Shown: piece after piece, positions 54,580-62,349 of the stretch | How positions within the stretch are numbered: position 1 is the stretch's first letter | How the letters are laid out: every line of letters starts with the position of its first letter | From: Lachnospiraceae bacterium | GTDB taxonomy: Bacteria > Bacillota > Clostridia > Lachnospirales > Lachnospiraceae | Assembly (NCBI GenBank): GCA_022510565.1 | Contig: JAFLTE010000002.1 | Coordinates: 247,928-311,927, forward strand | Length of the DNA stretch: 64,000 nt | Reading direction: 5' to 3' | Position numbers and translations under genes: made by a program | Notes under the pieces: generated by a model | What the model saw: only the letters and a program-made list of their open reading frames with translations | Told to the model about the DNA's origin: nothing | Database searches by the model: none

Positions 54580-57500
54580 TCAATATACACTGTCCAGCCA
54601 CTGTGATTCTAACTCCTGCCGTGGCTTGAAATCTTCCGATTCTGCATAGGTAAGCAGACTGTTGTAAAGCCAGTTGACCTCCGGGCTGTCTGTGTCCGAC
54701 AGATTCGACTGGCAGACAAGAAGGCTGCCTTCACCGACCTTCGCCTCATAGACCAGTCCCAGCTTATGGTTTCTTCCGAAATTATCTATCATCCAAATAA
54801 GCGGCTCCACCGGCTGTCCATCCAGAATCGCAATCCTTGTATCTGTCACAATCCGCCACCACTGAGGCGTAGTACATCCATCCGTCGGAAACCGTGTAAA
54901 CATCGGATGATTCTTGTCCATACATAAGCCCATGGTACCTACCGGAAGCGGTCTGCCCATGCTCTCGGAGATGGATGCAAACATCGGATAGCACCAGAAA
55001 TCCGTACAATATGTGCCCTCGATTGACATTTCCTCTCTGATACTGTTGCCAAAATAAAGTACTTTTTTACCCACACGCAGGGCATCAAGCATCTGTGCTT
55101 TGTCGGATGTAACCAGAACATTTGATGTGCCGGGCGATTTTATCTTAGATACCGCAGGGTATACGTAGATGTCGTAGTGATTTGACAGGCCCCTTTCCGG
55201 CACGCCGTTACTGCCACCACAAGCGGTATCTTCTCCACACTCTGTCACCCTGACCGTCACCCGATATTTCTTCGGCTCGGCGCAGTCGGGCAGCGTGAGA
55301 CTGCCGCGCCCGCAGCTTTTTAGGCGGGTCAGTTCCATAGTGCTGTTGTGCACCGCTTGAGCATATACCTTGCCGACTTTTCCTCTCATCGACTTACTGT
55401 CACTGTCTGCGCATGACCCATGCCGAGGGCTGTCCGAAAGTTCCTCCCCACAACACTCCGCCAGCTCCACGGTAATCTCCACAGGCGTCTCCTCATCCGG
55501 CCGCATATCACACAGCAGGATTTCATAAGCCAACTGCTCGCCTGCCTGATACACATAGGTGGGGAATGACAGCATGATAACTCTGTCATTGCAGAACTGC
55601 CTCCACTCTTCTGCGCTCACCAGCCCCTTATTTTCCATAAAAGCATTCAGGATACCCACAAGTGCTGTACCCTGCCCCGTAAAATCCTGCAAGTCCAATA
55701 GCTGAAAACCCGAAAGCTCCCGACTCCGAAATGCAGTCTCAAGCTCTCTCTTATAACACTCCACCGCCAGATGCCCCGACGCCCTGAAGAAACGCTCCGC
55801 CATGTGAAGCATTCCTTTATCCTCCAAACGTTTTCTGAAAATACGAAGATTCTCCGGTTGCAGTACACCTGTATACTTCTCAATCTCGGTGTAATCGGGA
55901 TAAACCTCATACTGTCCAATCTCGTGAGATACCACCGGCACATGGGGAATCAGTTCATCACCCGCCTGCGCCCGAACCTTCTTCGTTCCGGTTCCGTACT
56001 GAATCTCAATCTCACCCTCGGTCTGCGCAGCTCCTGCTTCCTTCGCTCCCGTTATCTTCTCCGTTTCGCCTTCGTTTAACGATTCCGTCGCAATCCTTTG
56101 TCCGGCTTCCGACATTGGGCAGATAAACTCATCATAGCTGTGGCAGTTATCCGGTATATTCACTTGAATATGCCCCTGCGGTGCGTCGCACATGGCATAG
56201 GAGCCGCGAAACAGCCTCTCTTTGGCAAACCGCACACCGCTGAAAAAGTCGTCATTTTCCAATATGGCAGGACAGAACTGAAAGTTGTTGGAGCCCTGCA
56301 CATACCAGTGCCGACTGTCCGCAGCCTTATACTGTCCTAAAATATCATTAAGTACTTCCTGATTTCCCCACAACTCATTCCCGAGAGAAAAGATCACGAA
56401 TGACGGATGATTGCCGAAGGCCTGCAATATACGGAAGCCCTCCTGCAAAAGCCACTCTCTGGCTGCCCGCTCGCTGTCGCTCTCCTGCTCACCCGCCACG
56501 GTTCCCCAAAAAGGAAGTTCCGGTGCCAAATAGATTCCCATCTCATCCGCTGCCGAGAAAGCCGCCTCCGGCGGACAGCAAGTGTGAAACCGATAATGAT
56601 TGATTCCGTACTCTTTCGCTATGCCGAACAGCTTTTTCCATGAATCTTTATCCATGGGTGCATACCCAGTCAACGGGAAAATCATGCCGTCATGTTTTCC
56701 CCGCAGCATGACAGGCAGGTCATTTAGATAAAATGTCCTTTCTTGCGTATGTAAATCCCGAAAACCGATTATTTCTGACGCTTCTGTCACAATCTGTTGA
56801 CCGCCTCGATAAACACTCACCGTCACCTCATAGAGATTGGGTGTATATTCATTCCACAGGGCAATTTCCTTTTCTGCGGGTATGTCAATGCGCAGAGTGT
56901 GCTCTGTGATTCCGCTCTGTAAGGGCAGCTCTAACTCTATAGCAGTCTCTGCAAGAGTTTCTCTACACTCCACAGGACAACACACAATATGCGCCCGTAC
57001 CGTCTTTGCATCCTGTTTTTCCGCATTTTTTCGCTCTTCTACAGGAAAATCATCCCCTGCATAAAAGCTGTTTCCTTCCATAAATGCGGAAGAAAACTCC
57101 GTGTGAAAGCGCACTTCCAGATTCCTGCTCTCTGCACGGGCTGTAACACACAGGTTTTCCACCCGCACCACAGGCTCCAGTTCAAGCGCAATCCGCCCCA
57201 ACATACCGTTCCAATTGGTCTGGGTATCGGGGGAGGTCATATGTCCTCCGGAAGTTTTGTAATCCACGTTACTGACCATTACAGTCAATCTATGTGACGC
57301 TCTTGTCAGATACTTGGTCAAATCGTATTTATGGGCCACAGCAAAGCTATCCTGTGTTCCCACAAAGCGGTCGTCCAACCAAACATAGGAGATCCGCGTC
57401 CGCTCGATTACAAGCTGCGCCAAATCTCCTACATGTTCCTCGGGAATCTCCAGCATACGGGAATACCATGCATAGCCTTCAAAATGATAGGTTTCCGTCA

Positions 57501-57666
57501 GGTATCCCGTCTCCTTCGCGTCCCCGCGTATTCCTTTCTTCGCCTCGGCGGTGGTGGTGGGCAGCATGATTGTATCGTCAAGCGTACGCCCGTAATATTT
57601 GTTCTCAATCCCCACCTTATCCGCATCCAGACAAAACTCCCATTCTCCGCGTAAGTCTATCGTCAT
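54580..57666 (-). CDS. Glycoside hydrolase family 2 protein
   Basis: A 1028-aa cytoplasmic enzyme without signal peptide. An N-terminal jelly-roll sugar-binding domain (LRGEWEFCLDADKVG, VWLDDRFVGTQDSF) is followed by an Ig-like sandwich and a TIM barrel beginning LPVMLRGKHDGMIFP. The acid/base Glu is in FVIFSLGNELWG and the probable nucleophile in VPVVSHEIGQYEVYPD. The C-terminal 400 residues include a beta-rich region and an unrecognised end domain. Specificity (beta-galactosidase, beta-glucuronidase or another) cannot be read from the motifs. ATG 57666 has GAGG 9 nt upstream; the track start at 57693 lacks one. It follows the SBP gene with its own promoter. Confidence 0.85.
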   Translation of the reverse strand: MTIDLRGEWEFCLDADKVGIENKYYGRTLDDTIMLPTTTAEAKKGIRGDAKETGYLTETYHFEGYAWYSRMLEIPEEHVGDLAQLVIERTRISYVWLDDRFVGTQDSFAVAHKYDLTKYLTRASHRLTVMVSNVDYKTSGGHMTSPDTQTNWNGMLGRIALELEPVVRVENLCVTARAESRNLEVRFHTEFSSAFMEGNSFYAGDDFPVEERKNAEKQDAKTVRAHIVCCPVECRETLAETAIELELPLQSGITEHTLRIDIPAEKEIALWNEYTPNLYEVTVSVYRGGQQIVTEASEIIGFRDLHTQERTFYLNDLPVMLRGKHDGMIFPLTGYAPMDKDSWKKLFGIAKEYGINHYRFHTCCPPEAAFSAADEMGIYLAPELPFWGTVAGEQESDSERAAREWLLQEGFRILQAFGNHPSFVIFSLGNELWGNQEVLNDILGQYKAADSRHWYVQGSNNFQFCPAILENDDFFSGVRFAKERLFRGSYAMCDAPQGHIQVNIPDNCHSYDEFICPMSEAGQRIATESLNEGETEKITGAKEAGAAQTEGEIEIQYGTGTKKVRAQAGDELIPHVPVVSHEIGQYEVYPDYTEIEKYTGVLQPENLRIFRKRLEDKGMLHMAERFFRASGHLAVECYKRELETAFRSRELSGFQLLDLQDFTGQGTALVGILNAFMENKGLVSAEEWRQFCNDRVIMLSFPTYVYQAGEQLAYEILLCDMRPDEETPVEITVELAECCGEELSDSPRHGSCADSDSKSMRGKVGKVYAQAVHNSTMELTRLKSCGRGSLTLPDCAEPKKYRVTVRVTECGEDTACGGSNGVPERGLSNHYDIYVYPAVSKIKSPGTSNVLVTSDKAQMLDALRVGKKVLYFGNSIREEMSIEGTYCTDFWCYPMFASISESMGRPLPVGTMGLCMDKNHPMFTRFPTDGCTTPQWWRIVTDTRIAILDGQPVEPLIWMIDNFGRNHKLGLVYEAKVGEGSLLVCQSNLSDTDSPEVNWLYNSLLTYAESEDFKPRQELESQWLDSVY

Positions 57667-57727
57667 AAAATCTGTCCTCTTCTCGACTGTCATGCATATC
57701 CGGTCAGTTTTTCTTATCTATGACGAT

Positions 57728-60178: not shown

Positions 60179-60214
60179 ACTGTCTTCCTCTCCTATACTA
60201 ATGATGTTGCAGAC

Positions 60215-60247
60215 AGCATACCAAAAAAATCTCTAATATTTCTCTAA
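60215..60247 (-). promoter_or_regulatory. SBP promoter with tandem response-regulator repeats
   Basis: On the minus strand TTAGAGA-N4-TTAGAGA (11-bp period, 60230-60247), then 9 bp, then TATGCT as -10 (60215-60220). No -35 box is recognisable, as expected for an activated promoter. Confidence 0.65.
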
Positions 60248-60264
60248 GATATATTAAGAAATTC

Positions 60265-60297
60265 TTAGAGATTCTTTAAAGATTCATATGTTAAGAT
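60265..60297 (+). promoter_or_regulatory. TCS promoter with mirrored tandem repeats
   Basis: TTAGAGA-N4-TTAAAGA (60265-60282, 11-bp period), then 9 bp, then TAAGAT as -10 (60292-60297). The geometry is identical to the SBP side in mirror image. Confidence 0.65.
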
Positions 60298-60374
60298 TGT
60301 ATCATTCCCAATCAGACAACGTTCGGGTATGAACAAAATAAGGGTCTGATTTCACCGAAAGGATTTGATACACC

Positions 60375-61052
60375 ATGCGCATCTTACTGGCAGAGGACGA
60401 CAGAGACTTGAATAAAGCGTTGGCATGGCAGCTTAACGGACAGGGCTACATCGTAGATTCCTGCTACGACGGAGAAGAGGCTCTCTACTACGGCGAACAG
60501 AATATTTACGATGTGATTCTGTTGGACCGCATGCTGCCCTATCTGGAAGGCACGGAGGTGCTTTCAACCCTACGGCAGCAGTCCGTCAACGTCCCCATCA
60601 TACTGATTACGGCACTCGGAACAGTGCAGGACAAAATTTCCGGGCTTGATTTAGGCGCGGACGACTATCTTGTAAAACCCTTTGATTTTGAAGAACTGTT
60701 GGCAAGAATACGATGCGTTACCAGACGCTCCACCACATTAAATCCACAGTCCGACCTTATCTCCTGCCATGATGTCACTTGGTCGGGACGGGATATGTGC
60801 TTAAGCGGCCCCTCAGGCAGCACTACCTTATCTAAACGGGAGAGCAGTCTTCTGGAAAGTTTCCTGCATATGCCGGAGCAGACCCTCGCCCGCGAGATGC
60901 TCCTGTTAAAAGTATGGGGACCGGACAGTGATGTGGAGGACGGCAATCTGGACAACTATATCTACTTCCTGCGTCGGCGGCTGAAAACGGTAGGCAGCTT
61001 ATTGCAGATTAAAACAGTTCGAGGAGTGGGGTATAAGCTATATGTTTCATAA
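60375..61052 (+). CDS. OmpR-family response regulator
   Basis: A 225-aa response regulator. The receiver shows LLAEDDRDL, the phosphoacceptor in VILLDRMLPYLEG, LITALG and LVKPFDFEEL. The C-terminal winged helix includes LSKRESSLLESFLHMPEQTL and ends TVRGVGYKLYV. It overlaps the kinase gene by 11 nt. It probably activates both its own promoter and that of the divergent lipoprotein through the TTARAGA repeats. GAAAGG precedes the ATG. Confidence 0.95.
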   Translation: MRILLAEDDRDLNKALAWQLNGQGYIVDSCYDGEEALYYGEQNIYDVILLDRMLPYLEGTEVLSTLRQQSVNVPIILITALGTVQDKISGLDLGADDYLVKPFDFEELLARIRCVTRRSTTLNPQSDLISCHDVTWSGRDMCLSGPSGSTTLSKRESSLLESFLHMPEQTLAREMLLLKVWGPDSDVEDGNLDNYIYFLRRRLKTVGSLLQIKTVRGVGYKLYVS

Positions 61053-62349
61053 GGCACACCTATTTTTTGCTATATTGTACGGCGGAACCACCGCTGCCAT
61101 CATGATTATTATGTCACTGTCATATCTGCGCATATCGGAGAAAAATCTCCACAATAATCAATTTGCCTCTTTTGAAAATGATGTCGGTACTGTCGTCATC
61201 AGTCTGGAACAATCTACTTATATATCCATGCAGTGGCTTGCGGGAATAGAATCCAGGAACGGGTACAGCATATTTGTCATTGACAATGGCGTTCCTTTTC
61301 TCTACAATACATTGCGCAATCCAGTTGACTCATATAGTCAAATGTTGTTGACGGAAAGCTTGGATGCATATAATATCATGTTTAAGACAGAGAAGGTTGA
61401 AACTGAAGGCAGCAGCTATTCAGGGGTTTGGCATACCGAATATGAGTTTATCTCTCCTACCACAGGTAATTCCTATTTCTGTGCCTTAATTGATATAGAG
61501 AGAAATACATCACTGTCACAAATTATCATTCTCCACTCTCTGGAAGATCTTCGCACATCAATACGAAACCAACGTATCCTCTTTTTATGGATGAATCTGG
61601 GTACCGTCACGGCGCTGTTCATCTTTGCGTACCTTTTCACGGGCAAACTATTAAAACCCTTACAAGAAAATCAGGAGAGACATATGCAGTTTATTGCCGC
61701 TGCATCCCATGAACTGCGCACCCCATTGTCCGTCATTCTGGCAAGCAGCGAATGTTGCCGGAGTGCCGATGCCGCAGAACAGGCAGGCTTTTTCAACACC
61801 ATTCGCAAAGAGGGACGGCGAATGAACAACCTCATTGATGAGATGCTGATGTTAGCTCATTCCGGTATAAAACACTTCCCCATTGAGAAAAAATCCGTGG
61901 AGTTAGATACTCTGTGCATCAACACATACGAAGCTTTTGAGCCACTGTGCAGACAGAAAGGTATTACGCTGTCGCTGACACTTCCCGACATGCCTCTGAT
62001 ACGCTGTGCCTGCGATTCCGACCGCATTGCCCAAGTACTGTCTGTCCTGCTGCATAATGCGGTCAGCTACACGCCCGAGGGTGGCTGCATTGAACTTGCT
62101 CTTGCCTATCACCGCGAGCGCAGAAGTTCTTTTGAAATCACAGTCACAGACACAGGGGTCGGAATTTCTGACGACGACAAACGCCATATTTTTGAGCGCT
62201 TTTATCGAGCCGAGAAATCCCGAAGCACCAAAGGACACTTCGGATTAGGTCTGTCTATCGCTTATGAGATTGTCACTGCTCATCACGGTAAAATCTCCGT
62301 GCAGGACAATCCCGGCGGCGGAAGCGTATTTTCGGTCAGACTGCCTTAA
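61042..62349 (+). CDS. Sensor histidine kinase
   Basis: A 435-aa kinase. Transmembrane segments lie near residues 6-28 and 185-207, with an extracytoplasmic sensor of about 155 residues between. The dimerisation box FIAAASHELRTPLSVIL carries the phosphoacceptor His. The ATPase domain shows LLHNAVSYTPEGG (N box), VTDTGVGISDDD (G1) and GHFGLGLSIAYEIV (G2). It is translationally coupled to the response regulator. The extracellular sensor might interact with the neighbouring sugar-binding lipoprotein. Confidence 0.94.
   Translation: MFHKAHLFFAILYGGTTAAIMIIMSLSYLRISEKNLHNNQFASFENDVGTVVISLEQSTYISMQWLAGIESRNGYSIFVIDNGVPFLYNTLRNPVDSYSQMLLTESLDAYNIMFKTEKVETEGSSYSGVWHTEYEFISPTTGNSYFCALIDIERNTSLSQIIILHSLEDLRTSIRNQRILFLWMNLGTVTALFIFAYLFTGKLLKPLQENQERHMQFIAAASHELRTPLSVILASSECCRSADAAEQAGFFNTIRKEGRRMNNLIDEMLMLAHSGIKHFPIEKKSVELDTLCINTYEAFEPLCRQKGITLSLTLPDMPLIRCACDSDRIAQVLSVLLHNAVSYTPEGGCIELALAYHRERRSSFEITVTDTGVGISDDDKRHIFERFYRAEKSRSTKGHFGLGLSIAYEIVTAHHGKISVQDNPGGGSVFSVRLP

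Follow-up and report, generated by a model that had tools for sequence, protein, structure and literature searches.

The divergent promoters of a two-component system and a solute-binding lipoprotein gene in a Lachnospiraceae bacterium share one 33-bp pattern, TTARAGA-N4-TTARAGA-N6-TG-N-TANNNT, in which two direct repeats stand at a fixed distance from an extended -10 box. Judging from the sequence, the repeated words very probably serve the regulator of the neighbouring gene pair itself as landing sites. Most likely, a phosphorylated dimer of this OmpR-family response regulator (RR, gene start at 60375) would replace the -35 contact at each array, activating the target genes and the operon of the RR and its histidine kinase (HK). 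The promoters would work like those of CiaR and PhoB, yet belong to neither regulon, and the regulon is new.

The window, i.e., the whole stretch of 64,000 nucleotides analysed, contained exact matches to the full pattern at 60215-60247 (-) and 60265-60297 (+) (Table 1), in an AT-rich intergenic stretch and inverted relative to each other. The original prediction had claimed TTAGAGA-N4-TTARAGA with an 11-bp period on both strands, 9 bp from TATGCT (-) and TAAGAT (+), and no -35 box. The repeats were present at 60265-60282 (+) and 60247-60230 (-); direct reading of 60201-60320 gave the same 11-bp period and 9-bp distances, and the outer ends of the two full matches coincided with the predicted limits. 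At a 17-nt spacer, AGATTC (+) and AGAAAT (-) agreed with TTGACA in 0 and 1 of 6 positions, and a promoter scan found no sigma-70 -35/-10 pair at either site, bearing out the lack of a -35 box. Classical sigma-70 promoters with a -35 were thus ruled out at the sites. A feature absent from the prediction is that both -10 boxes are extended, since TGn precedes both hexamers (TATGtTAAGAT; TTGGTATGCT). The string TTAAGAAATTCTTAGAGA, from the region of the third unit TTAAGAA, was unaltered in several close relatives. The third unit and the first RR-side half-site (60254-60271, TTAAGAAATTCTTA) also form a near-perfect palindrome, kept in the closest relatives.

Table 1 Promoter elements and flanking genes in the window.
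Feature	Position	Strand	Details
Array TTAGAGA-TTCT-TTAAAGA, RR-HK promoter	60265..60282	+	Half-sites 60265-60271 and 60276-60282; exact pattern match
Array TTAGAGA-AATA-TTAGAGA, lipoprotein promoter	60230..60247	-	Half-sites 60241-60247 and 60230-60236; exact pattern match
Extended -10 of RR-HK promoter, TG-T-TAAGAT	60289..60297	+	Hexamer 60292-60297, 9 nt past array
Extended -10 of lipoprotein promoter, TG-G-TATGCT	60215..60223	-	Hexamer 60220-60215, 9 nt past array
Third in-phase unit TTAAGAA, possible extra half-site	60254..60260	+	11 bp upstream of RR-side array
OmpR-family response regulator, 225 aa, proposed array binder	60375..61052	+	Pfam Response_reg, Trans_reg_C
Sensor histidine kinase, 435 aa, overlaps RR gene	61042..62349	+	Pfam HisKA, HATPase_c
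Solute-binding lipoprotein, 786 aa	57818..60178	-	Pfam SBP_bac_8 / SBP_bac_1
GH2-family glycoside hydrolase	54580..57693	-	Downstream of lipoprotein; Pfam GH2 domains; same order in L122

The RR had the two domains of the OmpR/PhoB family (Response_reg, E = 1e-27; Trans_reg_C, E = 4e-17). Orthologues of the kinase adjoined the RR in relatives and had an invariant SHELRTP, as expected of a cognate kinase. For the solute-binding protein (SBP), the predicted model (pLDDT 84.9) had a beta-rich domain at residues ~65-350, followed by a carbohydrate-type SBP domain, and its best PDB matches were sugar-binding proteins. The N-terminal domain (~290 residues) was conserved, propeller-like and outside the Pfam SBP domain; it could be assigned no solved fold from the PDB matches listed, which were sugar-binding proteins. 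The GH2 gene is possibly co-transcribed with the lipoprotein.

The pattern was rare. Without the -10 box, it was found twice in the window (0.01 expected from dinucleotide shuffles), and the entire 3.2-Mb genome had three copies, each with TGnTAnnnT at the same offset. The genome search proposed with the prediction thus gave three exact sites: the two window arrays and a third, on a different contig, that precedes an ABC-permease/HlyD operon. The sole other near match, with one mismatch over the 33 bp, was at G000:C43:43094. The full pattern occurred in 51 of 60 genus genomes and in 8 of 200 family genomes (199 genera), the reversed-pattern control in 0 of either set.

Orthologous loci were found via the kinase. 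The search began in the genus and was widened to 80 named Lachnospiraceae contigs, among them those of Kineothrix alysoides, Parablautia muri, Lachnoclostridium sp. An196 and [Clostridium] symbiosum; L125, misplaced in alignment A3, was disregarded there. Aligning these intergenic regions, as the prediction had suggested, showed that the repeats are conserved. With at most one mismatch, the RR-side array was present at 67 of 77 loci (42 exact), compared with 14 and 0 for the reversed control; the opposite-strand array was present at 33 (23 exact), compared with 4 and 1. After removal of near-identical upstream regions, 54 of 63 loci were still positive. Among half-site spacings from N0 to N11 at the relatives' loci, none besides N4 was found. 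The offset of TGnTAnnnT was the same in 62 of the 70 plus-strand sites of relatives and in 32 of their 34 minus-strand sites. The array was retained upstream of RR orthologues down to 60-65% RR identity, and the lipoprotein-side array kept to the lipoprotein side. Where an SBP gene was divergent from the RR (42 loci), both promoters were found in 36 and at least one in all; at six loci with other divergent genes the RR-side promoter was absent.

The gap between the divergent arrays ranged from 6 to 85 bp among relatives, showing that they are two independent promoters and ruling out a single mirror or palindromic operator. Of the “mirror-image” repeats first described, the inverted arrangement therefore stands, and the single mirror element does not. 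Among the sites scored, the second half-site was TTAAAGA in 72% on the RR side and TTAGAGA in all on the SBP side, a difference that may set different affinities.

Exact copies of the pattern were tied almost exclusively to a small set of genes. Many relatives had a divergent operon SBP-PERM1-PERM2-HlyD. In the window species the permease-HlyD genes were on another contig, with the third exact site immediately upstream, and PERM1 apart from SBP had its own exact site in the window genome, G005, G010, G012 and G014. In the collected loci, 126 of 129 distinct exact sites preceded SBP (47), RR (39), a small lipoprotein (28), an amidase (11) or PERM1 (1), proportions that are not unbiased because the set includes loci gathered by kinase homology and 20 loci picked by eye. 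Two of the remaining three sites were at contig ends and one before an SBP-like lipoprotein; that unrelated targets are almost missing is informative all the same. A C39-like peptidase gene followed the site on G000:C43; its orthologues had a weaker copy of the same geometry upstream in four relatives and none in three others.

The ~200-aa lipoproteins repeatedly found under exact motif copies (L285, L287, L291, L298, L301 and others) had no Pfam match and a conserved GGKVRSI..DSFVISRTL...LVTIRC. Membrane-anchored N-acetylmuramoyl-L-alanine amidases (Amidase_2) had exact copies in six genomes (L290, L293, L294, L299, L300 and L302), and several of them carried long basic low-complexity N-termini. 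At L119:3455-6622 (-), corresponding to G000:C43, a protein in which RCC1-like repeats are joined with a BlaR1/M56 peptidase domain was encoded downstream of a BlaI-like regulator and the C39-like peptidase gene with the one-mismatch motif promoter.

The layout used to find CiaR promoters of streptococci is TTTAAG-N5-TTTAAG-N10-TATAAT (PMC3091779). The window layout, TTARAG-N5-TTARAG-N10-[-10], matches it: both have two 6-bp direct repeats with an 11-bp period, a distance of 10 nt between the last G and the -10, no -35 and an OmpR-family RR. Extracytoplasmic targets are a further likeness. However, the half-site is TTAGAG/TTAAAG instead of TTTAAG and the recognition helix NLDNYIYFLRRRLK instead of VVEVYVSKVRKKL, which places the window RR outside the CiaR regulon. 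The window -10 is also extended, the target genes are those of an SBP/permease cassette and of an amidase, and the host belongs to the Lachnospiraceae.

PhoB-dependent promoters lack a -35 and act through sigma region 4, as in the sigma4-PhoB-DNA complex 3T72 (PMC4496699). In them, RR repeats replace the missing -35, and we propose the same for the window arrays, which have the hallmarks of OmpR/PhoB-type promoters, 11-bp direct repeats by a -10 without a -35, with the fixed offset given above. PhoB repeats are arranged head-to-tail with an 11-bp period. The window RR differs from PhoB in half-site sequence and regulon, and it scored 167 bits against the NCBIfam PhoB model (cut-off 296.2), so it is not a PhoB equivalog. 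The cassette resembles the YesMN-type sugar-ABC cassettes of Firmicutes, with an SBP and two permeases under an adjoining two-component system. Those cassettes use AraC-type regulators, whereas here the RR is of the OmpR type, the cassette also encodes an HlyD-like protein, and an extra N-terminal beta domain is present in the SBP. A search of the open literature found no description of the motif or the cassette. The regulon is new on these grounds: half-site, recognition helix and target set differ from those of CiaR and PhoB, and that search gave no description.

Together, the layout shared with CiaR promoters and an array position at which PhoB-type regulators hold sigma region 4 make activation and positive autoregulation the best reading. 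The geometry of an OmpR-family activator, as originally predicted, is supported by the CiaR-like layout, the family of the neighbouring RR and the retention of the array at its orthologues. On sensing its putative signal, the kinase would phosphorylate the RR, which would bind each TTAGAGA-N4-TTARAGA array as a head-to-tail dimer, on one helix face at about -22 to -39. There it would stand in for the -35 by holding sigma region 4, and RNA polymerase would use the extended -10, TGnTAnnnT. The plus-strand array would drive the RR-HK operon (autoregulation), and the opposite-strand array the solute-binding lipoprotein and perhaps GH2. In the window genome, further copies would drive the ABC-permease/HlyD operon and probably also the C39-like peptidase gene; in relatives, the regulon would add the small lipoprotein and the membrane-anchored N-acetylmuramoyl-L-alanine amidase. 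The prediction that the regulator drives both divergent genes at once is retained for a shared, predicted regulator and dropped for a shared element: the arrays are independent promoters, so “at once” means a common regulator.

We weighed three other explanations. Repeats arising by chance, or some structural feature (a hairpin or an RNA motif, for instance), might be suspected in an AT-rich stretch with inverted arrays. This is hardly credible, as the shuffle expectation was 0.01, reversed-pattern controls were near zero, and conservation already refutes it; that only the N4 spacing occurs and that the reversed control was 0 in the 60 genus and 200 family genomes show that the arrays are not chance. 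The gap between the arrays was not conserved and thus leaves no fixed hairpin. An Rfam search of the region gave no match and a terminator search no terminator-like site, ruling out a hairpin, riboswitch or terminator. It is also very unlikely that a different transcription factor owns the motif, with the cassette merely one of its targets. In its favour, the motif occurs in some assemblies that lack a close kinase, as in G012 (83% complete), where the sites were present. Against our own reading, only 4 of the 8 motif-bearing family genomes had a kinase match at E <= 1e-90, although in the other 4 the site adjoined a more distant RR, HK or SBP. Against the rival, all ten non-own exact sites in the 200 family genomes were at genes of this type (RR/HK/SBP or permease). 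Across the family, the motif also precedes the RR gene itself, and it co-occurs with the kinase across genomes (Fisher p 4e-5), whereas the strict motif is missing from other RR genes: none of 16 other RR-like matches in the genome had it upstream within one mismatch. The recognition helix NLDNYIYFLRRRLK was nearly invariant in the 80 relatives (NLDNY[IV][HY]FLRRRL).

As a third alternative, the same RR on the same arrays might repress, or repress one side and activate the other, which we consider improbable. An extended -10 (TGn) can support -35-independent transcription. With TGn at both -10 boxes, some activator-free transcription is conceivable, making repression possible; the array overlaps the -35 region, and the TTAAAGA/TTAGAGA difference between the two sides could mean different responses. 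Against this, the strict distance from array to -10 at every target suits a sigma-contacting activator, while repressor sites usually vary, and the CiaR and PhoB promoters of the same geometry are activated. Activation by the neighbouring RR therefore remains our preferred reading.

To our knowledge, few two-component regulons of gut Lachnospiraceae have been defined. The same sites recur in many gut bacteria before a limited group of cell-surface genes, which allows the gene set of the regulator to be read from the DNA. One motif, with almost no false matches, reveals all predicted targets of an orphan regulator across dozens of species, most of them uncultured, and ties a solute-binding/ABC cassette to cell-wall hydrolases. 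More tentatively, the SBP lipoprotein might be both a target and an extracellular co-sensor of the kinase, with uptake of a released glycan or peptidoglycan fragment coupled to production of the surface amidase and peptidase and promoter strengths graded by TTAGAGA/TTAAAGA, in an undescribed cell-envelope regulon of Lachnospiraceae. The regulon is directly testable in cultured relatives, e.g., Kineothrix alysoides and Parablautia muri.
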